Source of the DNA: an uncultured Pelagibacteraceae bacterium
GTDB taxonomy: Bacteria; Pseudomonadota; Alphaproteobacteria; Pelagibacterales; Pelagibacteraceae
DNA length: 32,582 nucleotides
Reading direction: 5' to 3'
Assembly: GCA_902598315.1 (NCBI GenBank)
Contig: CACKBP010000005.1
Span: forward strand, 1 to 32,582
The first letter of the stretch is position 1; each line of letters begins with the position of its first letter. A program made the translations under genes and the position numbers. The notes below the pieces were generated by a model. That model saw only the letters and a list, made by a program, of their open reading frames with translations, had not been told where the DNA came from and did not search any database. Shown piece by piece: positions 1,474-28,610 of the stretch.

Positions 1474-3075
1474 TTAGTCATGTAAATCAAGACCGTCTGA
1501 CTTGAGGTTTTTAGGTGTAAGCCTATATTTTTTGTCATACTCTTTACCTAAAATCTCGTGCATTTCGTTACCCTCAGGGGTAAATTTTTCAGCTTTTTTT
1601 ATTTCCCCCCAACGACTTTCAGGAAATTTGACATAATAAGCGAAAGTTCGAGCTAACCCTGAAATTTCCTCTTTAGGAAGCTGAGGCATATTTAACATGC
1701 TTTGACCACCGGCTGAAATTGACAGAGATACTATGTCCTCTTCTTTCATGTATCCTTTTTTAATTGCTAAATCTCTTAAAGGCGTGCCGTGATAAGGTGC
1801 AAAAACGTATGCACCAGTCGCATCTATATTTTTTGGTAATTTTCTCACAAATCTAATAGTATCAAAAATTAACTCTCTATTTTCATCTGGCATTCCAATA
1901 ATACAATTTGCTACCGCCACGTATTTTCTATCGGCAAGCATATGAAATGCTTTGATTTGCAAATCATCAGAAACATTTCTTTTAAGATATTTTTTTCTGT
2001 AAGCTTCGTTACCGTGTTCTATGCCTATATTACATCTTAACATATTCATGTCTTCCAAATCCTTGGCCCTTTTTGGAGTGACTGTTTCAGCACGTGTATT
2101 CATCCAAAAAGGAATCTTGTAGTCCATATACAGCTCTTTAAATTCATCCCATTCTTTATTGGACATTGCTAAAAAAGTATCAACAACAAAATAGATTAAA
2201 TCAACGTCATATTTTTTTACTAAAAAATCTAATTCGGTTCTAATTCTTTTAATTGATTTTTTTCTATGAAAAATTTTATTTACCTCACTTTTGTAAATTA
2301 CATTATTAGAGGGAGAGTTACAAAAAGTACAAGTGTATGGGCAGCCTCTTTGTGTTTCTAAACCTACCGCTCTATAAATCTTACCTTGCATGGGTCTATA
2401 GATACTTGTTTGATCGAACAAATCCCAATCTGGTATTGGTATAGTATCTAAACTTATCCCTGCTCTTAATGCATTACGATAAATATTACCTTCACCTTTT
2501 ACTGTAAAATTCGCCACGTTATCTATTCTATCACCGGTAATTAACCGATTGCACATTTCAATTACAGCTTCTTCTCCTTCACCTCTACAGATGTAGTCTA
2601 CATTATCGTTTTGAATTAATTTTTCAGAAGCATAAGTAGCAAACACTCCACCAAATAATGTTTTAAATGTTCTCTCTTTTTTTGGTATTAAATTTAAAAG
2701 ATCTATAGATAAGAAGTATGTACTTTCTAAAACAGATACTAATATTAAGTCTGGTTTAAAATTGTTTATTTTATTAATAAAATCTTTTTTTATTCCAGTT
2801 TTAGGTTGTTTTTTTTTTAACCATTCTGATTTGTTGAAAGCTGGTCGAGATCTATTTTTTGATCTAGCTTCATCCGCTTCCTCTCCTAAATTGGCAAAGT
2901 TAATATCTTGATAAAACGTACAATCGAACAAATCTACTTTATATCCTTGTTGTTTAAAAAGAGCAGTAAATATACCTATACTTTGTGGCATTACTCCACT
3001 CATTTGAATGTTTGGATACAACATCAAAATTCTGAAGTCCTCTGGCTTTCTACTTTTAAAGGGTGATTTTAACAT
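1474..3075 (-). CDS. B12-binding-type radical SAM enzyme
   Basis: A 533-residue protein. Residues about 14-190 form a Rossmann-like domain typical of the N-terminal cobalamin-binding half of class B/B12 radical SAM proteins ('FRILMLYPNIQMSG', then 'GYKVDLFD' and 'FGGVFATYASEKL'). The canonical DxHxxG motif is absent, as is common in this superfamily. Residues about 235-450 are the radical SAM core with the cluster motif C245-x3-C249-x2-C252 ('GCPYTCTFC'). Family members use 5'-deoxyadenosyl radical chemistry, often methylating unactivated carbons with methylcobalamin and sometimes rearranging rings. It is the last gene of the seven-gene minus operon, 45 bp after a methyltransferase gene, so the substrate is inferred to be a sugar or sugar nucleotide. 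It looks somewhat less A+T-rich than its neighbours. The family assignment is firm; cobalamin use and substrate are inference. Confidence 0.88.
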   Translation of the reverse strand: MLKSPFKSRKPEDFRILMLYPNIQMSGVMPQSIGIFTALFKQQGYKVDLFDCTFYQDINFANLGEEADEARSKNRSRPAFNKSEWLKKKQPKTGIKKDFINKINNFKPDLILVSVLESTYFLSIDLLNLIPKKERTFKTLFGGVFATYASEKLIQNDNVDYICRGEGEEAVIEMCNRLITGDRIDNVANFTVKGEGNIYRNALRAGISLDTIPIPDWDLFDQTSIYRPMQGKIYRAVGLETQRGCPYTCTFCNSPSNNVIYKSEVNKIFHRKKSIKRIRTELDFLVKKYDVDLIYFVVDTFLAMSNKEWDEFKELYMDYKIPFWMNTRAETVTPKRAKDLEDMNMLRCNIGIEHGNEAYRKKYLKRNVSDDLQIKAFHMLADRKYVAVANCIIGMPDENRELIFDTIRFVRKLPKNIDATGAYVFAPYHGTPLRDLAIKKGYMKEEDIVSLSISAGGQSMLNMPQLPKEEISGLARTFAYYVKFPESRWGEIKKAEKFTPEGNEMHEILGKEYDKKYRLTPKNLKSDGLDLHD

Positions 3076-4869: not shown

Positions 4870-6090
4870 CTAAAATTTTTTCTTCAATATAATTTGAGTG
4901 TGTTTTAATAATTTCTGTATTGATTTATAACTCGTAGCTGTAGAGAAAAAAATTAAGCCGTTATTAGGATAAAATATATTTTTTTTTAGTAAATATTTTT
5001 TAAAATCATTAATTTTTTTTGTTTTTTTTTTCTCTAAGAAATCTCTTTGAGGTCTATTAAAGACGTTTTTTTTTGAAAAAATTATTCTTAATATGCTTTG
5101 AAATCTATAAACTCTTGCATCAACATTATGTAATATTAAAAAATCATTCAATTTTTTTTGGAAATAATGACATTTAGCTACTAAATTTTTTAAAATTTCT
5201 TTGTTAGAATCTAAATATTTTAATGTTTCATATCCAACGAGTGAACTCATTGAATTTGCAGAAAAGGTCCCTCCGAAAAATACTTTTAGTTTATTTTTTT
5301 TTAATTTTTTATAAATTGAATTATTTATTCCTATTACTCCAATAGGTAACCCCCCACCTAAGACTTTTCCCAGTAGAGTTATCTCTGGATTTATTTTGTA
5401 TTTTTTTTGAACGCTACCCTCTAATGTTCTAAATCCGGTTATAATTTCATCAAAAATTAAATTTATTTTATTCTTTTTGCAGTAACTTTGTAAAAAATTT
5501 AGGTAACTGCCAATTGTATCCGTTGGTAATCCAGCTTGAACTGGCTCAATAATTAAACAATTAATTTTATTTTTAAATCTCTCTAAAATTTTTTTTGAAT
5601 TTGGTATATCATTATAAGGAATAAAAATTATTTTTCCTTTATTTTCCTCGATACCAGATGAAATTGGCTTAGGTTTAAAATTTTTATCGGGATAGAAAAG
5701 TGTCTTACTAACAGAACCATGCCAACTTCCAGCAACTGATACAATTAATTTTTTTTTGTTAGTTGCAAAGGAAATTCTTAGTGCTTTTGTTACAGCTTCA
5801 GTTCCAGAGTTACAAAAAACAATTTTTTTAAAATTTGGAAATTTTTTTTTAATCAGTTTTGAAAATTTTACTGCATATATATTAGGATGAGAAAAAATTG
5901 AATTTTTTTTGTTTAAGTAATTTTTTAAACTTTTGACTAATATTGAATTGTTATGTCCAAATAACAAACTTCCAGAACAATGAGATAAATCAATTAATTC
6001 TTTTCCTTTATAATATATTTTATCTTTAAAGCCTTTTTCAAATAAAATAGCTTTTTTATTGTATCCACCGTTTAAAATAATGTCATCCAT
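4870..6090 (-). CDS. class III PLP aminotransferase (glutamate-1-semialdehyde aminomutase-like)
   Basis: A 406-residue PLP fold-type I enzyme. Visible class III signatures are 'NSGTEAV' (94-100, phosphate contact), 'GSWHG' (121-125), 'IFDEIITGFR' with the PLP-ring Asp at 214, and 'LLGKVLGGGLP' with the Schiff-base Lys at 242. Class III members include glutamate-1-semialdehyde 2,1-aminomutase and many omega-aminotransferases. In polysaccharide loci, homologues are thought to aminate or transaminate sugar-linked or side-chain substrates. It is not the DegT/DnrJ/AryC1 family normally used for nucleotide-sugar amination, so it does not supply the LegC step. Its 2-bp gap to the sugar O-methyltransferase indicates co-transcription. 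Using it as the cellular HemL is unlikely, given the divergent sequence and the context. Confidence 0.85.
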   Translation of the reverse strand: MDDIILNGGYNKKAILFEKGFKDKIYYKGKELIDLSHCSGSLLFGHNNSILVKSLKNYLNKKNSIFSHPNIYAVKFSKLIKKKFPNFKKIVFCNSGTEAVTKALRISFATNKKKLIVSVAGSWHGSVSKTLFYPDKNFKPKPISSGIEENKGKIIFIPYNDIPNSKKILERFKNKINCLIIEPVQAGLPTDTIGSYLNFLQSYCKKNKINLIFDEIITGFRTLEGSVQKKYKINPEITLLGKVLGGGLPIGVIGINNSIYKKLKKNKLKVFFGGTFSANSMSSLVGYETLKYLDSNKEILKNLVAKCHYFQKKLNDFLILHNVDARVYRFQSILRIIFSKKNVFNRPQRDFLEKKKTKKINDFKKYLLKKNIFYPNNGLIFFSTATSYKSIQKLLKHTQIILKKKF

Positions 6091-8286: not shown

Positions 8287-9177
8287 TTACTTAATTTTTT
8301 TCCAAGCATCATAATGTTTTGATCCATAAACAGTGCCATCAACATTGCAAACAGAACATGGTGATGAACACCTTTTTCCATTTAGAAGCTCTCTTCGATA
8401 TTTGGATAAAAATTTACCATTCCAAATTTCAAAAAAATCTTTTTGCATTACATTACCCATTGAAATTTTTCTATTCCAATCATTTGGACAAACATACAAG
8501 TTGCCATCCCAATCTACTGTAGTTTGATAAGCTGTATAATAACATTTTTTTGTTTTATTAATTTTTCTCGTGTTCTCATCAATTTCTACATTAATAGTTC
8601 CTCCTCTATTAGATATAGCACCTAAACCGTAATCTTCATCTTTATGCCAACGTTCCCTTAAAGTGATAAAATTTTCTGGTATATTAAGTTTATTTATCAT
8701 TTTTTGAAATTTTATTTTTTGTTCCATTCCATCGTACATACTAATTAAAATTTGAGATAATTTTGAATTGTATAATTCTAAAATTGTTTTTTCAGTAATC
8801 ATGTCACCATTGGTAACCATTTCTACACCACCAAAAACACCTAACTTATTTATAATTTTTATTAAATCTTTATGAAGCATTGGCTCGCCATAACCGCATA
8901 AGCAAAATGCGCCCATAAAGTTTATCTTTTTAAGATCACTAACTAGTTTATCGATTAATGAAAGCTCCATTTTTTGATAAGTGTTAGGAGCAATATTATC
9001 ATCAAATTTTGGACAGAAACTGCACGATCTATTACATACATCTATTAAACTTAGTTCAATCCAACTTGGCAAAGGTATATTTTTAAAAAATTGTGGGTCT
9101 CGATCAAGTATGGGCTTTTTTCTTGAAGTATTCTTATTTATTGCCTCTTTTAAATTTACAGCTTCTTTTAGATCCAT
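8287..9177 (-). CDS. radical SAM/SPASM enzyme, first gene of the minus operon
   Basis: A 296-residue protein with the [4Fe-4S] motif C48-x3-C52-x2-C55 ('CNRSCSFC'). The 'GYGEP' motif at 95-99 contacts the SAM amino group. The C-terminal SPASM-type region has cysteines at 212, 230, 270, 274 and 277 ('CSSPCSVC'), which would ligate one or two auxiliary clusters. SPASM proteins modify peptides, aminoglycoside-type sugars and other substrates; BtrN and AlbA are examples of the fold. It opens the divergent operon whose other members are methyltransferases and an aminotransferase, so a sugar substrate is more likely than a peptide, and no precursor peptide is visible nearby. The ATG at 9175-9177 is the only good start and lies about 29 nt from a TATAAT box on the same strand. 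Confidence 0.85.
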   Translation of the reverse strand: MDLKEAVNLKEAINKNTSRKKPILDRDPQFFKNIPLPSWIELSLIDVCNRSCSFCPKFDDNIAPNTYQKMELSLIDKLVSDLKKINFMGAFCLCGYGEPMLHKDLIKIINKLGVFGGVEMVTNGDMITEKTILELYNSKLSQILISMYDGMEQKIKFQKMINKLNIPENFITLRERWHKDEDYGLGAISNRGGTINVEIDENTRKINKTKKCYYTAYQTTVDWDGNLYVCPNDWNRKISMGNVMQKDFFEIWNGKFLSKYRRELLNGKRCSSPCSVCNVDGTVYGSKHYDAWKKIK

Positions 9178-10156: not shown

Positions 10157-11149
10157 TTGAAATTCAAAAAAAAATCATTAGTAACTGGCGGAGCGGGATT
10201 TATTGGAAGCAATCTAGTAGATGAGCTTGTTAGGTTAAAGCACCATGTTACAGTATTAGATAATTTTAGCACTGGAAAAAAAAATAATTTAAAACATCAC
10301 AGTAAAAAAAATGTGAAGATAATCAATATTGATATATCTAAAAATTTAAAGATAGAAAAATATATAAAAAATATAGATTACGTATACCATCTTGCTGCTT
10401 TAGCAGACATAGTTCCTAGCATTAAATATCCAGAAAAGTATTTTAAATCAAATGTGATTGGAACATTTAATATTTTAAATGCCTCATTTAAAAATAAAGT
10501 TAAGAAATTTATCTACGCTGCTTCAGCAAGCTGTTATGGAATACCAAAAAATTTTCCTACTAGTGAAAAAAATAAAATACAAATTGAATATCCTTATGCA
10601 TTTACAAAATGGCAAGGTGAAGAATTGGTTATGCATTGGGCAAAGATATATAAATTTCCCGCTGTATCTTTAAGATTTTTTAATATTTACGGTCCTAGAT
10701 CTAGAACTTCTGGTGCATACGGAGCTGTTTTCGGAGTTTTCTTAAAACAAAAATTATCCAAATACCCTTTAACGATAGTTGGTGACGGTAGACAAACTCG
10801 AGATTTTTTACATGTTAAGGATCTTATTAAAGCAATTTTACTCGCTACTAAATCAAAGAGTGGTAAGATTTATAATGTTGGTTCCGGTAAAGAAGTTCAA
10901 GTTAATAAGATAGCCAGGCTTATTGGCGGCAGCCAAATTAACATTTCTAAGAGACCGGGAGAACCTGATAGATCATTAGCTGATATAAGTAAAATTAAAA
11001 AAGAATTAGGCTGGACTCCTAAAATAAATATTGAGGAAGGCGTGCAAACATTATTAAAAAGCATTAATCATTGGAAAAGTGCTCCATTATGGACTCCAAA
11101 TAAAATCAAAAAAGCCACAAAAGATTGGTTTAAATTTTTAAAAAAATAA
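10157..11149 (+). CDS. NAD-dependent sugar-nucleotide epimerase/dehydratase (extended SDR)
   Basis: A 330-residue extended SDR. The NAD-binding motif 'GGAGFIGS' is at 11-18, 'YAASASCYG' (with the catalytic-region Ser) at 120-128, and the active-site Y147-x3-K151 in 'YPYAFTKWQGEE'. This is the pattern of UDP-glucose/UDP-GlcNAc 4-epimerases and related dehydratases. 'RFFNIYGPRSR' (substrate loop) and 'VGDGRQTRDFLHVKDL' are also typical. The C-terminus carries an extra 'SINHWKSAPLWTP...ATKDWFKFL' tail of about 30 residues beyond the usual end. The start is TTG at 10157, since no ATG fits and the Rossmann motif begins about 9 residues later; a GGAG lies 12 nt upstream. It is the first sugar gene after the regulatory cassette, 2 bp before the kinase fusion. 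The substrate is unknown. Confidence 0.85.
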   Translation: MKFKKKSLVTGGAGFIGSNLVDELVRLKHHVTVLDNFSTGKKNNLKHHSKKNVKIINIDISKNLKIEKYIKNIDYVYHLAALADIVPSIKYPEKYFKSNVIGTFNILNASFKNKVKKFIYAASASCYGIPKNFPTSEKNKIQIEYPYAFTKWQGEELVMHWAKIYKFPAVSLRFFNIYGPRSRTSGAYGAVFGVFLKQKLSKYPLTIVGDGRQTRDFLHVKDLIKAILLATKSKSGKIYNVGSGKEVQVNKIARLIGGSQINISKRPGEPDRSLADISKIKKELGWTPKINIEEGVQTLLKSINHWKSAPLWTPNKIKKATKDWFKFLKK

Positions 11150-11151
11150 AT

Positions 11152-12672
11152 ATGGCAACTTTTTTAAATATTATACAATTATCAAAAAAAATTGATGAAA
11201 TCAGAAAAAAAAAGAAAAAAGTAGTTCTTTGTCATGGGGTGTTCGACCTATTACATGTAGGACATATAAGACACTTTGAAAAAGCTAAGACTTTAGGAGA
11301 TATCCTTGTTGTATCTATAACAGCAGATAAATTTGTGAACAAAGGTCCAGGCAGACCTGCTTTCAAAGAGGAAAATAGAGTGCATGCGGTATCCTCTATT
11401 AGAGATGTAGATTTTGTAACAATTAATCATGATTACACAGCAATAAATCTAATCAAAAAGATTAGACCAGATATTTATTGCAAAGGCCCTGATTATAGAA
11501 AGCATTCTAATGATCTAACAGGTGAAATCAAAAATGAGATAAAACATATTAAAAGAGTAGGCGGTCAAATTATATATACAGGTGGAGAAACTTTTAGCTC
11601 AAGTGTTTTAATAAATAAATTTTCGGAAAATATTTCAAGTTCTCAAAAAAATTCGATTAATAAAATTAAAAAAAGTTATACCTTTAATTCGTTAAATAAG
11701 TTGATAGAGAATTTTAAAAAAATAAAAGTATTGGTAATAGGAGAAACTATTATAGATCAGTACGTTTTTTGTGACGCTTTAGGGAAATCAGGTAAAGAAC
11801 CAGTTTTAGCCTTACGTGAAATGAAATCTGAAACTTATTTAGGAGGCGCACTTGCTATTGCAAGGCATATTTCAAAATTTTGCAAAAAAATAAATTTATT
11901 TTCAATGATTGGTGAAAAAAATGAATTCTTAAAAGAAATAAAGACAAGCTCTGAAAAAAATATTAAGTTAAATTTTATAAACAAAAAAGATTCACCAACT
12001 ATTTTTAAAAAAAGGTTTGTCGATTATATAAGTAACAATAAAATTTTAGGAGTTTACAATATTAATGATGATCCATTAAATCCGATGGATGAGAAAAAAT
12101 TTAATAATTACTTGAAAAAAAATTTAAAAAAATATGATCTAGTAATTGTATCTGACTATGGTCATGGATTTATTTCTTTAAAATCAGCAAAAATAATTAG
12201 CGAAAATTCAAAATATTTAGCTGTTAACGCTCAAATTAATGCAGCTAATATTGGTTATCACAGTATGAAAAAATATAAAAATATTAATTGCATGGTAGTA
12301 AACGAAAAAGAAGTTCGACACGAATTAAGGGATAGAACTAATGATTTAAAAATTTTAATGAAAAGATTGGCTAGAGAACAAAAAATTAAAACAGTAATTG
12401 CAACTAAAGGGCAGAACGGGTCTATCATGTATAATCTCAAAGAAAATAGTTTTGTTCAATCTGATGCTTTTGCGAAAAAAGTTGTAGATAAGATTGGATC
12501 TGGTGACAGCATGTTAGCCCTTATTTCCTTGTGTTTAAAATCTAATTTTAGTAAAGAGCTCTCACTTTTAATAGGTTCTTTAGCTGCAGCTTATTCTACG
12601 GAAACAATGGCTAACAAAGAACCAATTTCAAAAATTAAAGTATTAAAAGCACTAGAACATATTCTAAAATAA
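11152..12672 (+). CDS. cytidylyltransferase-PfkB kinase fusion, HldE-like with reversed domain order
   Basis: A 506-residue fusion. Residues about 20-155 are a nucleotidyltransferase of the RfaE2/GlyCT type, with 'HGVFDLLHVGHIRHF' containing H35-x2-H38, and 'ENRVHAVSSIRDVDFV' as the later motif. Residues about 190-506 are a PfkB/ribokinase-type sugar kinase. It starts 'IKVLVIGETIIDQYVF', has 'TYLGGALAIARHI' for sugar binding, and ends with the catalytic anion-hole motif 'DKIGSGDS' (G449-D452). E. coli HldE has kinase first and transferase second, so here the order is reversed. The predicted role is to phosphorylate a sugar at C1 and then activate it with a nucleotide (ADP-heptose-like or another NDP-sugar). 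It is packed between two SDR genes with 2- and 4-bp gaps, which supports one pathway. The true sugar may not be heptose. Confidence 0.85.
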   Translation: MATFLNIIQLSKKIDEIRKKKKKVVLCHGVFDLLHVGHIRHFEKAKTLGDILVVSITADKFVNKGPGRPAFKEENRVHAVSSIRDVDFVTINHDYTAINLIKKIRPDIYCKGPDYRKHSNDLTGEIKNEIKHIKRVGGQIIYTGGETFSSSVLINKFSENISSSQKNSINKIKKSYTFNSLNKLIENFKKIKVLVIGETIIDQYVFCDALGKSGKEPVLALREMKSETYLGGALAIARHISKFCKKINLFSMIGEKNEFLKEIKTSSEKNIKLNFINKKDSPTIFKKRFVDYISNNKILGVYNINDDPLNPMDEKKFNNYLKKNLKKYDLVIVSDYGHGFISLKSAKIISENSKYLAVNAQINAANIGYHSMKKYKNINCMVVNEKEVRHELRDRTNDLKILMKRLAREQKIKTVIATKGQNGSIMYNLKENSFVQSDAFAKKVVDKIGSGDSMLALISLCLKSNFSKELSLLIGSLAAAYSTETMANKEPISKIKVLKALEHILK

Positions 12673-12676
12673 AACC

Positions 12677-13657
12677 ATGAGAAAAATTTTAATTACTGGT
12701 GGCGCTGGGTACGTGGGGTCTGTTTTAACTCCATATCTTTTAAAAAAAGGTTATGAAATAACTGTTTTAGATTTAATGATTTATGGCAATGATGTTTTAA
12801 AAAGGGATAAAAAATTAAGTATTATTAATGGCGATATACGGGATATTAATTTACTAGAAAAAATTATACCGGGGCATGATGCTATAATCCACTTAGCGTG
12901 TATATCTAATGATCCAAGTTTTGAGTTAAACCCTGATTTAGGTAAATCTATTAATTTTGATGCATTTGAGCCCCTTGTAAATATTTCAAAAAAATCAAAA
13001 ATAAAAAGATTTATTAATGCGTCAACATCTTCCGTTTATGGCATTAAAAAAGAAAAAAATGTTGATGAGACAATGGAATTAAAACCTTTAACAGATTACT
13101 CAAAATACAAAGCTGATTGTGAAAAAATTCTTGATAAATTTAACGACTCCTCTTTCTGTGCTGTGACTTTGAGGCCGGCAACAGTTTGCGGATACTCTCC
13201 ACGTCAAAGATTAGACGTTATAGTAAATATTCTGACTAACCTAGCTTATCACAAAAGAGAGATAAGTATTTTTGGAGGGGGTCAATTACGCCCTAATATT
13301 CATATTAACGATATGATTAGAGCATACGAATTAATGTTAACATCTGAAGATAAAAAGATATCAGGAAAAATCTTCAATGTTGGCTTCGAAAATAGATCAG
13401 TTGAGGAAATTGCAAGAATAGTTCAGGATAAAGTCGGCAAAGATGTTATATTAAATAAAACCGAAACGAACGACAATAGGTCTTACCACATTTCCTCAGA
13501 AAAGGTAAAAAAAGAGCTTAATTTTTCTTGTAAATTTAATATATCTGATGCAGTAAGTGATCTAATCAATAAATTTGAAAATAAAGTTTTTAAAAATCCT
13601 TTAACAAATGAAAGATATTTTAATATTAAAACAATGAAAAAATTAAATCTTAAATAA
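12677..13657 (+). CDS. NAD-dependent epimerase/dehydratase (second extended SDR)
   Basis: A 326-residue extended SDR. 'GGAGYVGS' at 8-15 binds NAD; 'NASTSSVYG' (114-122) and Y141-x3-K145 in 'DYSKYKADCE' form the active site. 'RPATVCGYSPRQRLDVIVNILT' is the substrate-binding segment, followed by 'GGGQLRPNIHINDM'. The 'HLACISNDPSFELNP' stretch after the Rossmann core resembles members acting on NDP-hexoses or NDP-heptoses, but I cannot distinguish epimerase from dehydratase or reductase. It lies 4 bp after the kinase-transferase fusion gene and 3 bp before the E1 alpha gene. It therefore probably acts on the NDP-sugar formed by the fusion enzyme, or prepares the acceptor for the thiamine enzyme. 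It is clearly different in sequence from the SDRs at 10157 and 28635, so it is not a recent duplication. Confidence 0.82.
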   Translation: MRKILITGGAGYVGSVLTPYLLKKGYEITVLDLMIYGNDVLKRDKKLSIINGDIRDINLLEKIIPGHDAIIHLACISNDPSFELNPDLGKSINFDAFEPLVNISKKSKIKRFINASTSSVYGIKKEKNVDETMELKPLTDYSKYKADCEKILDKFNDSSFCAVTLRPATVCGYSPRQRLDVIVNILTNLAYHKREISIFGGGQLRPNIHINDMIRAYELMLTSEDKKISGKIFNVGFENRSVEEIARIVQDKVGKDVILNKTETNDNRSYHISSEKVKKELNFSCKFNISDAVSDLINKFENKVFKNPLTNERYFNIKTMKKLNLK

Positions 13658-13660
13658 GTT

Positions 13661-14704
13661 ATGAATAAAAATTTATTAAAAAAAATTTATCAGATAATGC
13701 ATCTAATTAGATTTTCCCAAGAACATCTGATAAATATTTATCATCCTGAAGATAAAATGAAATGTCCTATACACTTTTGTAAAGGACAAGAAGCTTTAGC
13801 ATCGTGTTTAAGTCAATTTTTAGTAAAAGATGACTACATTTTATCTCATCACAGATCCCATGGATATTATATCTCGAAAAAATGTCCTATAGACCAAATG
13901 GTTGCGGAGTTCTATGGAAAACGAAGCGGCTCAAATGAAGGTTTAGCTGGCTCTCAAGAATTATCTTACTCAAAAAATAATTTTTACAGCGGAACAATTC
14001 TTTCTGGCATGTTTTCAATAGCATTGGGTACTGCTTATGTTCAAAAAATTTATAATAAGAGAAATATTACATATACGGTTATTGGTGATGGAGGCATGGA
14101 AGAAGGAATAGTTTATGAAACTTTGAACTTAGCATCATTAAAATCTTTACCAATTCTCTTTATTTGTGAAAATAATAGATACTCAGTGCATACAAACATT
14201 AATGAACGAACAAAGAGCTCAAATTTTAAAAAAAAAGTCGAGTCATTTGATATTAAATACATTAAGATTTCTGAATATGAAATCGAGAGTATTTTTAAAA
14301 AACTCAAAGAAGCTATTCAATACATAAAGTCAAATGCAAAACCTGTTTTTATTGAGTACGACACAATGAGAACATGTGGACATGTTGGCCCAGAAGATGA
14401 TGACAAAGAGCATGACTATCGAAAACTAGATTTATTAAAATGGAAAAATAAAGACAGTTTTATAGATTTACGTAAAAAATTAATAAGAATATCTAATATT
14501 AAAAGCATAAATTTGATTGAAAAAAGAAATATAAATATCGTTAAAAGTGCAGTTACTAAAGCCCAGAAAGCGAAAACTCTAAATTTTAATACAAGCCTAA
14601 AATATAATCTTATTAAAAAATTTTCTAATAAAGTTAAGTCCTTTGCTAAACCTTCTATTGATTTTAAAAGTAATCAAAAAACAACAAAGCTAAACCCATA
14701 TTAA
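13661..14704 (+). CDS. thiamine-diphosphate enzyme, E1 alpha subunit (PDH/acetoin-dehydrogenase-like)
   Basis: A 347-residue protein. The ThDP/Mg-binding motif starts with 'GDG' at 142-144 and ends with 'NN' at 171-172, about 28 residues apart as in the family. 'SHHRSHGYYI' (62-71) and 'YGKRSGSNEGLAGSQ' (85-99) are typical of E1 alpha subunits of 2-oxoacid dehydrogenases. The C-terminal ~60 residues are lysine-rich and diverge from true PDH. No E2 or E3 gene is in the window and no phosphorylation loop is evident. The complex may therefore act as a free carboligase or decarboxylase rather than as part of a dehydrogenase complex. It overlaps the E1 beta gene by one base (TAATG), so the two subunits should be made in equal amounts. 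The position between sugar genes points to sugar metabolism rather than central carbon flux; that part is inference. Confidence 0.85.
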   Translation: MNKNLLKKIYQIMHLIRFSQEHLINIYHPEDKMKCPIHFCKGQEALASCLSQFLVKDDYILSHHRSHGYYISKKCPIDQMVAEFYGKRSGSNEGLAGSQELSYSKNNFYSGTILSGMFSIALGTAYVQKIYNKRNITYTVIGDGGMEEGIVYETLNLASLKSLPILFICENNRYSVHTNINERTKSSNFKKKVESFDIKYIKISEYEIESIFKKLKEAIQYIKSNAKPVFIEYDTMRTCGHVGPEDDDKEHDYRKLDLLKWKNKDSFIDLRKKLIRISNIKSINLIEKRNINIVKSAVTKAQKAKTLNFNTSLKYNLIKKFSNKVKSFAKPSIDFKSNQKTTKLNPY

Positions 14705-15678
14705 TGAAAAGAAAAATTAATTTTTCTACAGCTATAAAAGAAGCAATGTTTGAATCAATGAAATTAGATCAAAAAGTAATTGTTTATGGCCTTGGAGTTG
14801 GAACAAGTGGAAATATATATGGCACTACAAAAGGTCTTAAAGAAAAATTTGGGTCTAAAAGAGTTTTTGATGCCCCGGCAGCAGAGTCAGCCCTTACAGC
14901 AATGGGTACTGGGATGGCATTATCTGGCGCAAGACCGCTTCTCATACATCAGCGGTTTGATTTTATGATTTACTCTTTGGATCAAATAGTAAATTGGATC
15001 TCTCTTTGGAGTTACAAGTCGGCTGGTAAAAGTCAAATTCCAATAACAATTAGAACAGTTGTAGGTAAAGGATGGGGTCAAGGACCTCAACACGCAAAAT
15101 CTTTGCATTCCTGGTTTTCCAATTTACCAGGAGTTTCTGTTGTTTACCCATCTTCTCCATATGAAGCTAAAGGATTATTATTAGGTTCAATTTTTTCTAA
15201 TTTTCCTACTATTTTTTTTGAAAGTAGAAGTTTGCACGCAAGTGTTGAGAACGTTCCAATAAAACCTTATTTTTTAGATCCTACAAAATCATTTATCAGA
15301 AAAAAAGGAAAAGATTTAACTATCGTTGGCTTTGGACCTTCAATTGTAGACGCTTTAAGAGTATCAGACGAAATTGAAAAACGTAAAAAAATCACTTGTG
15401 AAATAGTTGACCTAAGAACAATAAATCCAATTGATGAAAAAACAATTATAAACTCTTTAAAAAAGACAAAAAATTTATGTGTTATTGAACATGGTTGGCC
15501 TAACTCAAGTGTTTCGTCTGATATTATCTCTATAGTTACAAAAAAAGTAAAATTAAAAAATAAACCTTTACAGGTTTGTTGGCCACAAAGTCACGTTCCT
15601 ACATCGAGTGACTTAGAAGATAAATTTTATTTTAAAATATCTGAAATAATTCAAAAAATTGAAAAAAATTTTAAGTAA
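14704..15678 (+). CDS. thiamine-diphosphate enzyme, E1 beta subunit
   Basis: A 324-residue transketolase-type protein. The N-terminal pyrimidine-binding domain starts 'INFSTAIKEAMFESMKLDQKVIVYG'. The conserved Glu needed for ThDP activation is E61 in 'APAAESALTA'. The 'HQRFDFMIYSLDQIVNW' helix follows, with 'GPQHAKSLHSWF' in the substrate-loop region. The C-terminal transketolase-C domain (about 195-324) has 'DLTIVGFGPSIVDAL' and 'IVDLRTINPID', then 'CVIEHGWPNSSVSSDI'. Together with the preceding gene it forms a complete heterotetrameric E1, which transfers two-carbon acyl or ketol units after decarboxylation. No lipoyl E2 is visible. The downstream orphan gene starts one base after its stop, so translation is coupled. 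Confidence 0.87.
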   Translation: MKRKINFSTAIKEAMFESMKLDQKVIVYGLGVGTSGNIYGTTKGLKEKFGSKRVFDAPAAESALTAMGTGMALSGARPLLIHQRFDFMIYSLDQIVNWISLWSYKSAGKSQIPITIRTVVGKGWGQGPQHAKSLHSWFSNLPGVSVVYPSSPYEAKGLLLGSIFSNFPTIFFESRSLHASVENVPIKPYFLDPTKSFIRKKGKDLTIVGFGPSIVDALRVSDEIEKRKKITCEIVDLRTINPIDEKTIINSLKKTKNLCVIEHGWPNSSVSSDIISIVTKKVKLKNKPLQVCWPQSHVPTSSDLEDKFYFKISEIIQKIEKNFK

Positions 15679-15679
15679 A

Positions 15680-15973
15680 ATGATTTCTATCCAATTTAGA
15701 GAATTAGTGAAGAAATATGAAAAAATTCTTACATCGACTTCTAGAGGCTTTGATACCAAATATGAATTTCTTGAGGCATGGGTTCCTAGTTCGGAGATTA
15801 CCCAAAGTGTTTTAGACCTAATAAACTCCGCTCTTGATTATGAAATCAAAGAATTAGAAATTTTATTTGATGTTAGCGATTTTAAAGAGCTAAATTTTGA
15901 TAAAATTAAAAAAAAGTTCCCACAAAATATTAAAATTTTGACAGAAGAAAAAAAAATAATTTTAACTGGTTAG
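15680..15973 (+). CDS. unrecognised 97-residue protein in the E1/rSAM block
   Basis: I do not recognise this protein. I chose the ATG at 15680, one base after the E1 beta stop, giving 97 residues; an alternative TTG at 15659 would overlap the E1 beta gene. It is acidic in the middle, with alternating hydrophobic and charged residues suggesting two or three amphipathic helices and a final beta strand ('IKILTEEKKIILTG'). There is no signal peptide, no membrane segment, and no conserved cysteine pair. It lacks the DSL-type serine of acyl carrier proteins and has no lipoyl motif, so it does not replace E2. Its tight placement between E1 beta and another orphan implies a role as a partner or scaffold of the E1 or radical SAM enzyme. 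This is inference from context only. Confidence 0.7.
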   Translation: MISIQFRELVKKYEKILTSTSRGFDTKYEFLEAWVPSSEITQSVLDLINSALDYEIKELEILFDVSDFKELNFDKIKKKFPQNIKILTEEKKIILTG

Positions 15974-15975
15974 TG

Positions 15976-16623
15976 ATGAAAAAAAGCATTTTTGAAAATG
16001 AAAAATTAATTTTTTCTTTTTACTATGACGAACAAACAAGTAAGTTTAGTCAGATTAATTATAAAGATAAAAAGTTGAATAATTTTGAAAAAAAAATTTT
16101 AGACGAAGCAATAAAACTTTTTTACGAATGTAGCATTCAAGAATTGTATGAACATTTAATTATAAGAATAGAAAATAGATTAAGAGATTACTCCTCTAAA
16201 CCTTATAGTGATGGAGTGTTAATGCCAGAAAATTTAAGCGAATTTTCTTTCTTTCAACATTTTTTCAGAGGTATACTTAAAAAATTAATAGCAAAAAATT
16301 TAAGTTCAAGAATTAATTTTCAATGCTTAAAACCTTCTAAAAGTTGGACTGATTTAAACGACAACCAAAAAAAAACGGCTATTATAAATGAATTTAAAAA
16401 ATTCAATTTTCCTTCTGGATATTCAGTTGATAATCTTGATATATTAAGGATCGAAAAGAATAGTGATATCTTTATAGATTTACAAAATATGCACGATATA
16501 GATATGAAAAATAAGCTTTGTTTATCACTTGAAATTTATTTAAAAAGGTCATTAGATGAGTCTTTAAACATTTACTTAGAGACTGTTGTAGACAAAAATA
16601 AATTAAGAAGGTTGAAACTTTAG
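15976..16623 (+). CDS. unrecognised 215-residue protein upstream of radical SAM gene
   Basis: I do not recognise this protein. The chosen ATG is at 15976, two bases after the previous stop; a GTG at 15973 overlaps that stop by one base and is also in frame. The protein is soluble, without signal peptide or membrane helices, and has only three or four scattered cysteines. It begins with a short beta-rich section ('NEKLIFSFYYDEQTSKF') and continues with helices through 'LYEHLIIRIENRLRDY'. It ends in a strand-helix-strand region, 'FIDLQNMHDIDMKNKL' to 'DKNKLRRLKL'. The gene ends 2 bp before the radical SAM/SPASM gene, so the two proteins are probably translated together and may interact. It could be a substrate-presenting or cluster-delivery partner; no motif proves this. 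Confidence 0.72.
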   Translation: MKKSIFENEKLIFSFYYDEQTSKFSQINYKDKKLNNFEKKILDEAIKLFYECSIQELYEHLIIRIENRLRDYSSKPYSDGVLMPENLSEFSFFQHFFRGILKKLIAKNLSSRINFQCLKPSKSWTDLNDNQKKTAIINEFKKFNFPSGYSVDNLDILRIEKNSDIFIDLQNMHDIDMKNKLCLSLEIYLKRSLDESLNIYLETVVDKNKLRRLKL

Positions 16624-16625
16624 TT

Positions 16626-17780
16626 ATGTATAATTTTGACTCAATGCAAAAACATTTAAATGAAGAGCTATCTCAATCATTAATTTTAGATGGGACTAAA
16701 ATTCAATGGTATACGGATAGAGTCAAAGAGTGGGAAAAAGGAAATAAAATTGCTCCAGTCACAATTGATATTGCTCTAACAAGGAGTTGTAATTATGCTT
16801 GTCACTTTTGTTACGCAATGACACAAGAAAATGATAGATCAGTAATTACTAAACAACATATCTTTGATTTTTTGGATGATGCAGCTGAAATTGGGGTTAA
16901 AGGAATAAGTTTAGTATCTGACGGAGAAAGTACAGTTTCACCAGTATTTGTCGATGCAGTTGAAAGGGGAGGAAAAAATGGTTTATCGATGGCAACTGCA
17001 ACTAATGGATTTTTACTAAACCAAGATAAATTAGAAAGAATATTACCTCACTTAACTTATTTAAGATTTAATATATCTGCAGGAGAACCAAAACGTTATG
17101 CAGAAATTATGGGATGCAAAGAACAGTGGTTTGAAAGAGTGTGTAAAAACATAGAACTAGCCGTGAAAATAAAAAAACAAAAAAACCTTAAAGTTACAAT
17201 AGGAATGCAAATGGTTTTTATGCCTCAGTATCACGATCAAATTTTGCCTTTGGCAAAATTAGGTAAGAGAATTAAGCCAGATTATCTTGTAATAAAACAA
17301 TGTAGCGATGATGAATATGGATCACTTGGAGTTGAATATGGAAAATATAAAGATCACTTTAAATTATTAAAAGAAGCAGAAGCAATGTCAGATGAAGATT
17401 ATAAAGTTAGAGTAAAATGGTCGAAAATAAAATCTGAGGGAGTGAGGACTTATCAAAGATGTTATGGACCTCCTTTTTTATTACAAATGTCTGGCTCTGG
17501 TTTGATCGCACCTTGCGGGCAGCTTTTTAATGAAAAATTTAAAAAATTTCATATCGGAAATATTACACAAACAAGATTCAAAGATATTTGGGAAAGTTCA
17601 AGGTACTGGGAAGTTATGAGCTATTTATCCTCTGCTTATTTCAATGCTCAAAAAATGTGTGGCAATCTATGTTTGCAACATAAAGTCAACGAATATTTAG
17701 ACGGTTATAAAAAAGGTCTAACAGATCTAAAAAAACCAGAAAGTCACGTAAAAAAACCTCAACATTTAAGCTTTATTTAA
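16626..17780 (+). CDS. radical SAM/SPASM enzyme in the E1 block
   Basis: A 384-residue protein. The radical SAM cluster motif is C55-x3-C59-x2-C62 ('CNYACHFC'), followed by 'GISLVSDGESTVSP' (93-106), a variant of the GGEP-type motif with 'SDGEST'. A SPASM-like C-terminal region has C279, C297, C345 and C349, with 'HIGNITQTRFKDIWES' (309-324), the hallmark sequence around the auxiliary-cluster cysteines. Such enzymes carry one or two extra [4Fe-4S] clusters. No precursor peptide is visible in the immediate neighbourhood, and the surrounding genes make sugar precursors. The likely substrate is a sugar nucleotide or a small molecule attached to one of the orphan proteins. The 34-bp gap to the next gene is the largest in this run and may mark the end of the module. 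Confidence 0.87.
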   Translation: MYNFDSMQKHLNEELSQSLILDGTKIQWYTDRVKEWEKGNKIAPVTIDIALTRSCNYACHFCYAMTQENDRSVITKQHIFDFLDDAAEIGVKGISLVSDGESTVSPVFVDAVERGGKNGLSMATATNGFLLNQDKLERILPHLTYLRFNISAGEPKRYAEIMGCKEQWFERVCKNIELAVKIKKQKNLKVTIGMQMVFMPQYHDQILPLAKLGKRIKPDYLVIKQCSDDEYGSLGVEYGKYKDHFKLLKEAEAMSDEDYKVRVKWSKIKSEGVRTYQRCYGPPFLLQMSGSGLIAPCGQLFNEKFKKFHIGNITQTRFKDIWESSRYWEVMSYLSSAYFNAQKMCGNLCLQHKVNEYLDGYKKGLTDLKKPESHVKKPQHLSFI

Positions 17781-26045: not shown

Positions 26046-26165
26046 GTGTTGAACAAGTGAGTGGGGAATCAGTGTGAAATTCACTGGCTGTTCCTGCAAC
26101 CGTAAAGTCGGAGCGCCACCCAACATAGCCCGCTGTTGAATGAAGGCCAGGAAAAGCCTAGTTCT
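26046..26165 (+). ncRNA. cobalamin (B12) riboswitch
   Basis: The non-coding region carries the conserved landmarks of a cobalamin riboswitch in order. These are 'GGGGAATCAGTGTGAAATTC' (26063-26082; GGGAA then GGTG-aAa-TCC-like), the core 'CTGTTCCTGCAACCGTAAAG' (26088-26107), 'GGAGCGCCACC' (26110-26120, replacing the usual GCCACTG), and the 3' B12-box-like 'AAGGCCAGGAAAAGCCTAG' (26143-26161). It is clearly richer in G and C than its surroundings. It sits between a TATAAT-type promoter and the btuB-type gene. It should reduce expression when cobalamin is abundant. The platform holds an 8-bp hairpin (26200-26207 with 26211-26218, loop TTT) but no U-tract, so translational control fits better than termination. 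Confidence 0.88.
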
Positions 26166-26237
26166 GCTATTAAAAATTAACATCGGCAAATTATCAAAGT
26201 TTAGCAATTTTTGCTGAACAAAAGACTATAGGCTGAT

Positions 26238-28097
26238 ATGAAAAAAATTTTCTTTATATTATTTGTATTAATTTTTTTGACACCTCTTTACAGTAAAGAG
26301 ATGAAAAATTGTGAATGGAAAAATGAGAACGGCGTTCCATGCTTAACAATTTTTTCAGCGCCAAATACTTCAAAAATAACTGAGAGCACTTTAGGTAAAA
26401 CGATAATTACAAGAAAGCAAATTACCGATTCTGGTTATAAAGATGTAAGAAGCGTTTTAGAATATGTTGTAGGCGTAGATGTATACGCGAATGGACCTAA
26501 AGGCCAAAATACCTCAGTATTTATGAGGGGCTCAAATTCAAATCACACTCTAGTCTTACTCAATGGAATACCAATAAATGATCAAGGTGCACCAAAAGCT
26601 CAGTTTGATTTTGGTTATGACTTTTTACAGGGTATACAACAAATTGAAATTTACAAAGGTGCTAGCGGAGCAATTTTCGGGCCAGCTGCAATTGGCGGGG
26701 CAATAAATCTAGTTACTGATATAGAATATGAAAATAGTGCATCGATTAGCGCTAATGATAAGAGAAATAATTCTCTCAGTGCTAATTATACTTACATTAC
26801 CAAAGAGGGATGGCACCATAATATTAAAGGTGGATCAACTCAATCAGAAAAAATCTCTGCAAAAAATAATCAAAAAGATCTTGATGGAACAAAAAATTTT
26901 ACAATGAACTATAACACTCAAAAATTTTTGACGGATAATTTGAAATTTAAAGGAACAGGATATCTTAGAAAAACGGAGTCAGGGTATGATGTTTCAGCAG
27001 ATGAATACGCATCTGGAACGAACATCATGTATGCTCTTCAATCTAGTTTAGAGAATAAAAAAGACAATAAATTTGATATTTTTACTTCTCACATCCACGT
27101 TTATGACAGAATTTATGATGAGGATGTAAAAAATAAGTATTATTCACAAGCTTATACTTTAAAAGCTGAGAGAAAAGTAAATTTTTCAGAAAATTTTTCA
27201 TATGGTTTTGGAGGGGATTACAAATATAATAAAGGTGATTTTATAGTTAATGGCACTTACGGTAGTTCAGCAAAAGGACACTCAGATAATTTAGGAATTT
27301 TTTCTAATTTAGGTTACAGATTTGACGATACAACTATCTTTTCTTTCCATACTAGGGGAGATTCTCACAAATATAGTGAGGAAAACCTTACTTATAGATT
27401 AAACGCGACTAAAATTATAGATAAACTTACATTAAGTTTATCTGAGTCAACTGGCATCAGACATCCTGATTTATACGTCTTACATGGCGGTAATAGTAAT
27501 TCTAGTTATTACAATGGATCGTTTAAAGCTATGTTAACTACCAAACCAGAGACGAGCTTGACACGTGAACTTTCAGCTCGATATAGTTTTTCTGATAAAA
27601 TTTTTTTCGATACTACAGCTTATCGTAGTTCGGTATCAGATGTATTAAATCGCAGTAATTCAACGGGAGGATACAACGAGACTATTGATATTGATCAAGA
27701 AGGATTAGAAAATAGTTTTACTTTTAAGGATGATAAACAAACGCTTAAACTATCAGGTACGTTTTCTAAAAGCACAGAGGGTAGCGGGAAACCTCAATTA
27801 AGAAGACCAGAAAAGCAATATGGAATAAATTATAATGCGGAATTGAAATCTAATTTCTTCGGGCCATTAGGGTTAAATATCGACTACAGACATGTAGGAA
27901 AAGCAGAGGATTACGTAGGTTTTATTAGAAAAAAAGTAGACAGTACAGACATCGTCAATGTGTCTCTCTCGAAAAAATTATTTGGATTAGATTGGATTGT
28001 AAGTGGAACTAATTTAACCGATGAATATTATCAGAGGCCTTACGGATATAATCAAGAGCGCAGAGAATTTAATCTATCCTTAAGAACTAAATACTGA
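26238..28097 (+). CDS. btuB: TonB-dependent vitamin B12 receptor (BtuB-type)
   Basis: A 619-residue outer-membrane receptor. Residues 1-19 are a signal peptide (Lys-Lys, then a hydrophobic core ending 'PLYS'). The plug domain spans about 40-155, with 'ITDSGYKDVRSVLEYVVGVDVYANGPKGQNTSVFMRGSNSNHTLVLLNGIPINDQ' features and 'GASGAIFGPAAIGGAINLVTD' closing it. The rest is a 22-strand-type beta-barrel of alternating hydrophobic/polar strands ending in a C-terminal Tyr ('NLSLRTKY'), as required for barrel assembly. The size is typical of BtuB. The cobalamin riboswitch 73 nt upstream identifies the ligand as B12 or a corrinoid rather than a siderophore. TonB/ExbBD and BtuCDF genes are not in the window. 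A weak AGG lies 5 nt before the ATG. Confidence 0.87.
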   Translation: MKKIFFILFVLIFLTPLYSKEMKNCEWKNENGVPCLTIFSAPNTSKITESTLGKTIITRKQITDSGYKDVRSVLEYVVGVDVYANGPKGQNTSVFMRGSNSNHTLVLLNGIPINDQGAPKAQFDFGYDFLQGIQQIEIYKGASGAIFGPAAIGGAINLVTDIEYENSASISANDKRNNSLSANYTYITKEGWHHNIKGGSTQSEKISAKNNQKDLDGTKNFTMNYNTQKFLTDNLKFKGTGYLRKTESGYDVSADEYASGTNIMYALQSSLENKKDNKFDIFTSHIHVYDRIYDEDVKNKYYSQAYTLKAERKVNFSENFSYGFGGDYKYNKGDFIVNGTYGSSAKGHSDNLGIFSNLGYRFDDTTIFSFHTRGDSHKYSEENLTYRLNATKIIDKLTLSLSESTGIRHPDLYVLHGGNSNSSYYNGSFKAMLTTKPETSLTRELSARYSFSDKIFFDTTAYRSSVSDVLNRSNSTGGYNETIDIDQEGLENSFTFKDDKQTLKLSGTFSKSTEGSGKPQLRRPEKQYGINYNAELKSNFFGPLGLNIDYRHVGKAEDYVGFIRKKVDSTDIVNVSLSKKLFGLDWIVSGTNLTDEYYQRPYGYNQERREFNLSLRTKY

Positions 28098-28109
28098 TAA
28101 TTTAAGTTT

Positions 28110-28610
28110 ATGAAAAACAATCTATTAATTTGTATTGGAGTCTTTTTTTCACTAGCAGTTAGTAGATTTATACCTCATCCTCCTAATTTTACTAGCTTAG
28201 TTGCTTTAAGTTTTTATGTTCCTGTTTTTTTTGGCCGAAAATATATACCTGTAGTTATCTTAAGTTTTGCTATTACTGATTTAATAATAGGATATCATAA
28301 TGGAACGCATTGGACATGGGGAAGTGTTTTGGTAATTGGTTTGGTATCTTCTTTCTTTGCAAGTAAATTAATGTATAGAATTTTAGGGTCTTTAATTGGA
28401 TGCGTTATTTTTTATGCTATGACTAACTTTGGTGTTTGGACCACAGGCATGTATGGATTAACATTTAATGGTTTAATCGAATGTTATATTCTTGCTATTC
28501 CATTTTTCGGTAATACTTTATCTTCAACACTAATTTTTTCAATAATAATAGAACTAACATATATTTGTTTAATTAAGATTAAAAAAAAATACTTACTTAA
28601 ATACAAATAA
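28110..28610 (+). CDS. DUF6580-like membrane protein, putative S-component for B12 or precursor
   Basis: A 166-residue integral membrane protein with about five transmembrane helices (roughly 5-20, 25-42, 46-64, 73-110 and 125-155). It has the family-like signatures 'SRFIPHPPNFTSLVALSF', 'AITDLIIGYHNGTHWTWGS' and 'AMTNFGVWTTGMYG', which resemble DUF6580 proteins, compact membrane proteins in the size range of ECF-transporter substrate-binding components. It starts 12 nt after btuB and should be governed by the same riboswitch. That context makes it a good candidate for a cobalamin or corrinoid-precursor inner-membrane permease working with a shared ECF energy module. BtuM is a known Gram-negative analogue with a different sequence. 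Substrate and mechanism are inferred. Confidence 0.75.
   Translation: MKNNLLICIGVFFSLAVSRFIPHPPNFTSLVALSFYVPVFFGRKYIPVVILSFAITDLIIGYHNGTHWTWGSVLVIGLVSSFFASKLMYRILGSLIGCVIFYAMTNFGVWTTGMYGLTFNGLIECYILAIPFFGNTLSSTLIFSIIIELTYICLIKIKKKYLLKYK

Follow-up and report, generated by a model that had tools for sequence, protein, structure and literature searches.

What would a pair of thiamine diphosphate (ThDP)-dependent E1 subunits do when no lipoyl E2 is linked to it and when it is followed directly by two orphan proteins and a radical S-adenosylmethionine (SAM)/SPASM enzyme? The question is raised by a block of five genes in a 32,582-nucleotide stretch of DNA (hereafter the window; contig CACKBP010000005.1, assembly GCA_902598315.1) from an uncultured Pelagibacteraceae bacterium. 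The source genome is small and of SAR11 type (939 kb in 18 contigs, 83% complete, the window being on contig 5), and the block is placed in a glycan region. All five genes are on the + strand: an E1 alpha-like subunit with the ThDP-binding half (13661–14704; 347 aa, Pfam E1_dh at 4.7e-48), an E1 beta-like subunit with the pyrimidine-binding half (14704–15678; 324 aa, Transket_pyr at 1e-24 and Transketolase_C at 1.3e-22), an orphan of 97 aa (15680–15973, ATG start), an orphan of 215 aa (15976–16623, ATG start) and the radical SAM/SPASM enzyme (16626–17780; 384 aa, Pfam Radical_SAM at 4.1e-16 and SPASM at 6.7e-6). The spacings, read from the open reading frame (ORF) coordinates, are −1, +1, +2 and +2 bp, which bears out the layout with gaps of −1 to 2 bp described in a first-pass annotation of the window.

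We suggest that the E1 pair may add a two-carbon unit to an unusual surface sugar, and that the radical SAM enzyme and a NifU-shaped adaptor made up of the orphans act as well. We give this reading about even chances of being right. As a whole, the module appears to make a higher-carbon or branched sugar.

Recurrence of the module

A scan of a genome-contig collection with the radical SAM protein, which is much better conserved than the 215-aa orphan, gave 87 relatives, from which 80 loci were kept. These include one outlier (L096, 37% identity) and only the second of each of the duplicate places L010=L073, L011=L091, L097=L075, L098=L020 and L008=L017. The nearest relative of the window protein is L017, at 72% identity, in a record titled uncultured Pelagibacteraceae bacterium. 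ORFs were called mechanically, with some starts over-extended and antisense noise in GC-rich loci.

The C-terminal domain of the 215-aa orphan (C-domain; 16330–16620, alignments A4 and A8) is the part common to the variants of the module. Relatives of it were found by hidden Markov model (HMM) in 74 of the 80 loci, to which L050, L051 and L056 add a divergent copy seen with relaxed HMM settings. Its end lies at most 300 nt from the start of the radical SAM gene in 68/80 loci, and a ThDP enzyme on the same strand is present in 66/80. Since the 80 loci were chosen by radical SAM similarity, what is found when starting from the orphan matters. Orphan searches matched 6 of 297 Pelagibacterales genomes, the window's included, and C-domain searches matched 4 of 398 genomes of the phylum, one of them weakly and lost with a later profile. 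The orphan-side searches gave solid matches in seven genomes besides the window's (G191, G195, G117, G194, G240, G360 and G576), and all seven carry the radical SAM gene and a nearby ThDP enzyme; they had been found before profile A8, which was built from the radical SAM loci. A scan of the genome-contig collection with the orphan alone found no relative. The co-occurrence of C-domain, ThDP enzyme and radical SAM gene is more than chance. Records with the module are titled alpha- and betaproteobacteria, Nitrospira, Myxococcales, Acidobacteria and others, many being metagenome-assembled genomes and some perhaps misbinned. Full-text literature searches for combinations of the parts turned up no description of the module among the matches listed.

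The E1 pair and its replacements

The alpha subunit has GDG at 142–144, NN at 171–172 and GHV at 240, and the beta subunit has E61 and GPQH at 127. The GDG, NN and E61 motifs are thus all where the first-pass annotation had put them, and the pair has the ThDP motif and catalytic Glu as a 2-oxoacid dehydrogenase E1 would. Against the pyruvate dehydrogenase (PDH) E1 model TIGR03182 the alpha subunit scores 199 bits (curated cut-off 394), and against PDH models the beta subunit scores 212 of 454 bits (equivalog NF008854) and 233 of 321 bits (subfamily NF006667). The same annotation had seen no E2, and a whole-genome PF00198 search agrees: matches fell on contigs 10 and 11 only, with none on contig 5, so that in this genome, 83% complete, no lipoyl E2 was found linked to the pair. 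The E2 on contig 11 adjoins a lipoyl–AceE fusion, an E1 of homodimeric type (aceE equivalog, 1461 bits versus a cut-off of 860), and that on contig 10 lies directly 3′ of a 962-aa E1 gene. To judge from these sequences, AceE, which has an E2 of its own, is the PDH of this genome. A role of the pair as housekeeping PDH was rejected, AceE being present and each E2 adjoining another E1. In the E1 alpha tree, where the window protein is a long branch, 51 E1 alphas of the system are set apart by one branch (support 98) from 28 further ones, these being the best PF00676 places in 41 genomes of one class, taken irrespective of E2. This and the other trees used here are quick searches with SH-aLRT support only.

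The ThDP enzyme differs in type among relatives. Over the 80 loci it is an E1 pair in 58, a transketolase in 9 and an acetohydroxyacid synthase (AHAS)-like enzyme in 2, with three loci having two types, and Pfam supports examples of each. A split transketolase replaces the E1 pair in L050, L051, L056 and L090; the last has KT–SDR1–DegT–DegT (genes described below), then both transketolase halves, the C-domain and the radical SAM gene, where other loci have E1 alpha, E1 beta, C-domain and radical SAM gene. In L007 and L009, which are outside the 80, an AHAS-like enzyme lies between the orphan and the radical SAM gene, and in L055 such an enzyme is also in the ThDP place. If the type at each locus is set by the closest enzyme up to 8.5 kb away, the tree of 83 radical SAM proteins requires at least 6 changes of ThDP type, and at limits of 5, 3 and 1.5 kb at least 5, 4 and 3, respectively. 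The number thus varies with the permitted distance, from 3 to 6, but is above one at every distance tried.

Acyl transfer to lipoate is not common to E1, transketolase and AHAS, whereas carboligation is possible for all three. Since the ThDP enzyme has been swapped among these types, the conserved role would most simply be carboligation, and carboligase is accordingly the simplest candidate role for the E1 pair as judged from sequence. The carboligase proposed in the first-pass annotation gains indirect support in this way, from the swaps and from the lack of a tie to an E2. As a separate observation, the second transketolase half encoded at L050:8228–8719 and at L035:3159–3650 is 163 aa long and has no Transketolase_C domain.

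The orphan proteins

The two orphans had been described as unrecognised, and they remain without a family: neither has a Pfam match above cut-off (the best for the 97-aa protein is Bfc, 13.6 of 27 bits) or an NCBIfam match at E 0.1. Alternative starts are a TTG at 15659, which would make the first protein 104 aa, and a GTG at 15973, which would make the second 216 aa. In 25 fused relatives a single protein matches the 97-aa orphan (N97, the N domain) with its N-terminus and the 215-aa orphan with its remainder, and, as ORFs were called, the C-domain often forms the end of a protein of 317–433 aa. N97 is modelled as a small alpha/beta protein (predicted local distance difference test score, pLDDT, 89; predicted template modelling score, pTM, 0.80), to which no structure was clearly matched in fold searches (E at best 0.44 in Foldseek, Z at best 6.3 in VIA). 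For the 215-aa protein the model of its relative L018 stands in (pLDDT 91, pTM 0.74); it predicts an IscU/NifU_N-like domain followed by an Nfu-like alpha/beta domain.

The IscU-like middle domain corresponds to 16021–16329 (alignment A6, 25 rows). The best 50 Foldseek matches listed for the L018 domain are all IscU, SufU or NifU (E 7.1e-5), and VIA gives Z 13.8 against IscU. Single hhalign comparisons with 22 IscU sequences gave a probability of 76% (E 2.2e-5) for the domain alone and 39% (E 3.1e-4) for the whole protein, a fair, not strong, sign of common descent at the profile level. NifU_N (PF01592) matches 1/37 members, at E 0.0025, and DUF1904 scores 2.2e-4 in one member. The cysteine ligands of IscU are not conserved: the only Cys column filled in more than 3 of the 25 rows is present in 21, is at a non-ligand position and is Ile in the window, and the third ligand position lies beyond the aligned part, where no conserved Cys column was found. 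Conserved instead are H61 (25/25), N87 (24/25) and N115 (23/25; all numbered from the GTG at 15973), which suggest a site other than that of IscU.

For the C-domain, VIA gives Z 8.8 with NFU1 and 8.2 with CnfU; since other folds reach up to 7.8, Nfu is a fold resemblance only. Membership of the Nfu family was rejected, given an hhalign probability of 0.4% and a cluster site, CxxC, that is not kept (1/31 rows with the C-domain only, 1/37 rows of A5). No lipoyl-Lys or phosphopantetheine-Ser domain was matched in the orphans by Pfam, and the relative of the 215-aa protein is predicted to fold otherwise. Among the 31 C-only relatives there is no invariant Ser, Lys or Cys, and one Lys reaches at least 90%. 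With no Pfam match, other folds and no invariant Lys or Ser, the orphans were rejected as an E2 or acyl carrier. The first-pass annotation had seen in them a carrier or scaffold. The carrier falls, given the residues just named and the IscU- and Nfu-like folds; the scaffold stands, an adaptor fitting better, and a scaffold-like adaptor is plausible on the predicted structures.

The radical SAM enzyme

The window enzyme, of type RS1, has CX3CX2C at 55–62 and the SPASM cysteines 279, 297, 345 and 349. Reading of these columns over 83 sequences separates two forms. All four SPASM cysteines are kept in the 48 RS1 rows (48/48), 39 of which have N97. RS2 is a clade of 35 sequences (support 100) in which the four are lost in 34 (the other, L094, is cut); the C-domain is the sole partner domain found in it (35/35, L079 being truncated at the start), and neither N97 nor the IscU-like domain is seen. 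L057, together with L050, L051 and L056, keeps the SPASM cysteines with the C-domain as only partner found, divergent in the last three. Since RS2 is a single clade, the loss of the SPASM cysteines along with N97 and the IscU-like domain may be one event. For this reason, and given the four exceptions, the split hints at a service of the IscU-like part to the SPASM clusters but does not prove it. The 25 best NCBIfam matches listed for the radical SAM protein are all far under cut-off, several of them to maturases, and naming its reaction from NCBIfam was rejected for that reason. A profile search of the PDB matched SkfB only (3.9e-10).

Sugar pathway context

Directly upstream of the block, on the same strand, lie SDR0 (10157–11149), a GalE/dehydratase-like sugar SDR by Pfam, KT (11152–12672), a fusion of a cytidylyltransferase-like domain and a PfkB kinase that is HldE-like with reversed domain order, and SDR1 (12677–13657), an NAD-dependent sugar epimerase/dehydratase (Pfam Epimerase, 1.5e-41). 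The HldE-like KT is found by cluster or HMM in 57/80 loci, and in 47 of the 55 that exceed 15 kb; the SDR0 cluster is found in 36/80, the SDR1 cluster in 37/80, DegT aminotransferases in 45/80 and a GmhA-like SIS gene in 39/80 by clustering or 42/80 by HMM, neighbour genes being named by Pfam. Both domains of KT stay below the curated HldE cut-offs, with 135 bits (cut-off 345) and 112 bits (cut-off 181.5). By analogy, the gene context resembles the heptose activation route, and the HldE-like kinase-transferase, SDR, SIS and DegT genes support the sugar-nucleotide context proposed earlier for the upstream genes. A further radical SAM/SPASM family is also present in 14/80 loci (e.g. L083:4488–5588), directly upstream of SDR0 in 13.

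Proposed pathway and alternatives

In the pathway that we propose, KT and the SDRs would produce a keto-bearing nucleotide sugar on the way to an unusual sugar of a surface glycan; the SIS and HAD genes of relatives suggest a heptose-like route. Acting without an E2, the E1 pair would serve as a ThDP carboligase and extend the keto sugar by two carbons, most probably an acetyl group that comes from pyruvate, a role that would be taken in other lineages by a split transketolase or an AHAS-like enzyme. Next would come the radical SAM enzyme, with the extended sugar or a precursor of it as substrate. Together the orphans would form a NifU-shaped adaptor of N97, IscU-like and Nfu-like parts, without the IscU cysteine ligands, whose probable binding partner is the radical SAM enzyme, the ThDP enzyme or both. 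A bolder form, which we consider rather unlikely, is that this metal-site-less adaptor, derived from an iron–sulphur scaffold, docks the radical SAM enzyme onto the ThDP carboligase in a three-part assembly. The unit added by ThDP chemistry would then be processed directly by radical chemistry on the nucleotide sugar, and the interchangeable ThDP enzymes would set which unit is added.

Several points weigh against the proposed pathway. What the sequences show is the gene content, its recurrence, the changes of ThDP type, the predicted folds and the loss of conserved ligand cysteines; carboligation, the sugar substrate, the product, the radical reaction and the role of the adaptor are what we infer from these. 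The IscU relation rests, for these models, mainly on fold: a profile of the middle domain reaches IscU among PDB sequences only at E 0.74–1, under SAM synthase (0.31), and hhalign gives no support for an Nfu relation (probability 0.4%). The DegT pair and the SIS gene, common in relatives, are absent from the window. Among the ThDP swaps, the AHAS-like type accounts for only 2/80 loci, and in L035, L074 and L077 a distance of 3–8 kb separates the transketolase genes from the radical SAM gene, and the two need not be partners. There are also 14/80 loci without a same-strand ThDP enzyme, 8 on stretches of up to 12.0 kb and 6 on stretches of 13–19 kb. No ThDP enzyme was seen near the radical SAM genes of the clade L032, L049, L054 and L092, and the protein combining N97, IscU-like domain and C-domain is still present in the last three of these.

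The E1 pair is moreover often found without the rest of the block. In Pelagibacterales the E1 alpha profile matches 38/294 genomes at 1e-30 (26 of them below 1e-58, the weaker matches often having in-frame stops), and 34 of the 38, or 22 of the 26 strong ones, are without a C-domain match; the four with it are G000 (the window's genome), G191, G195 and G117. Twenty regions from the 22 strong genomes were examined, several ending early at contig ends, and no C-domain was seen in these 20. The order SDR0–KT–SDR1–DegT–DegT–E1 alpha–E1 beta is complete in L233, L235 and L238. One region, L243, has an RS1 radical SAM gene, and since its frame starts 178 bases from the contig start, an orphan could lie past the contig end. 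As E1 is common without the C-domain in these genomes, it would be part of a wider sugar pathway, to which, on this sequence evidence, the radical SAM enzyme and the orphans are an add-on usually accompanied by a ThDP enzyme. An obligate five-gene unit was rejected, most Pelagibacterales genomes of E1 type being without the orphan domain. Of the suggestion that the five genes belong together across genomes, the recurrence of the module is thus upheld (C-domain in 74/80 loci, ThDP enzyme in 66/80) and the obligate unit is not, E1 being separable.

Other explanations differ in which of the parts they take as central. The NifU architecture consists of an IscU-type domain followed by an Nfu-type domain, and the predicted folds of the orphan come in that order; the orphan might therefore be a true NifU/Nfu-type iron–sulphur carrier or maturation factor for the radical SAM enzyme, supplying or mending its clusters, with the ThDP enzyme a mere pathway neighbour. 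That RS2 has lost its SPASM cysteines along with N97 and the IscU-like domain, and that N97 goes with 39/48 RS1 rows, would fit. However, the IscU ligand cysteines are not conserved and the one common Cys column is not a ligand, CxxC is kept in one of the 31 C-only rows and one of the 37 rows of A5, RS2 retains the C-domain though it has no SPASM cysteines, the co-loss in this one clade may be a single event, and L057, L050, L051 and L056 keep the SPASM cysteines with the C-domain only. On balance such a factor seems unlikely. The ThDP enzyme might also act early, forming a ketose phosphate in the manner of DXS or transketolase, which SIS would isomerise and KT activate before the radical SAM enzyme and the orphan act on the nucleotide sugar. 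The frequency of SIS (42/80) and KT (57/80) and the split transketolases of L050, L051, L056 and L090 speak for such an order; the AHAS-like enzymes of L007, L009 and L055 and the lack of an SIS-cluster gene in the window speak against it, as do published E1 pairs, assigned to nucleotide-sugar steps in the available parts of the reports (PMC4802897, PMC4753412). We regard an early step as somewhat less probable again than a maturation factor.

With peptide-maturing SPASM enzymes, a small protein directly upstream is the usual order, and the small C-domain protein does sit directly upstream of the SPASM enzyme, has a strongly conserved C-terminal motif and is accompanied by an enzyme several of whose best NCBIfam matches, far under cut-off, are maturases. 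It might thus be the substrate of a peptide modification whose product the E1 pair modifies or uses. This is improbable: the protein is a confidently folded domain in the model and often the end of a 317–433 aa protein, the alignments show no variable core, and in L086 the C-domain adjoins an AHAS-like enzyme and is 9.8 kb away from the radical SAM gene. We think it least probable of all, to the point of being hardly credible, that the pair works as a conventional 2-oxoacid dehydrogenase E1 that serves a lipoyl E2 of this genome. Pfam does name it E1_dh, PDH E1 alpha proteins head the PDB matches of its alpha subunit and the genome has two E2 genes, but these lie beside the AceE-type E1 on contig 11 and after the 962-aa E1 gene on contig 10, the E1 alphas of the system stand apart from the 28 others in the tree, and transketolase or AHAS types replace the pair elsewhere.

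Other features of the window

An AdoCbl-II cobalamin riboswitch (87 bits; region 26046–28610) lies upstream of two genes, one for a TonB-receptor plug-domain protein and one for a DUF6580 membrane protein, a pair whose likely role in this SAR11-type genome is uptake of B12 or a precursor. The window also encodes a B12-binding radical SAM protein (1474–3075, − strand), and a B12-type radical SAM cluster is found in 5/80 of the related loci. A second radical SAM/SPASM protein, of 296 aa (8287–9177, − strand), shares a run of minus-strand genes with a class-III aminotransferase (4870–6090).

Relation to known systems

If the proposed pathway is true, radical chemistry would be added to ThDP-built sugars, and an IscU-fold protein without the IscU ligands would offer a test of the role of such a fold when it holds no metal. 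The module is testable, strains of Azospirillum, Nisaea, Herbaspirillum, Polynucleobacter and Methylomonas being among the records.

YerE is an AHAS-like enzyme. It is a ThDP flavoenzyme that puts the two-carbon branch on an O-antigen sugar in the yersiniose pathway, according to the available portion of the source (PMC4753412), and an AHAS-type enzyme is in the ThDP place in L007, L009 and L055, whereas the window uses an E1 pair. E1 pairs have themselves been proposed, or supported genetically, to form sugar branches of two carbons derived from pyruvate: Plm8/Plm9 on the paulomycin sugar (PMC4802897, in part) and AviB1/AviB2 of avilamycin and Pau11/Pau12 (PMC4753412, in part). Like these, the window pair is in a sugar gene cluster without an E2. 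Unlike the window, they belong, as far as the accessible text of these reports goes, to antibiotic pathways of Streptomyces in which the acceptor is a 4-keto-deoxyhexose, and neither a radical SAM enzyme nor a NifU-like protein is mentioned in that text.

The orphans are like the IscU/SufU/NifU scaffolds in the predicted fold of the middle domain (Z 13.8) and in the order of IscU-like and Nfu-like parts, and differ from them in that the ligand cysteines are not conserved, in the extra N97 and in being encoded next to a radical SAM gene within glycan loci. DesII is a radical SAM enzyme acting on a sugar; the window enzyme shares the context of a sugar cluster and matches TIGR04426 weakly (1.4e-9), but with 37.2 bits against a cut-off of 450 it is not a member. 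With HldE, GmhA and GmhB of heptose activation the module has in common both HldE-like domains of KT and the SIS and HAD genes of relatives, while the order of the KT domains is the reverse of that in HldE and their scores stay under its cut-offs.

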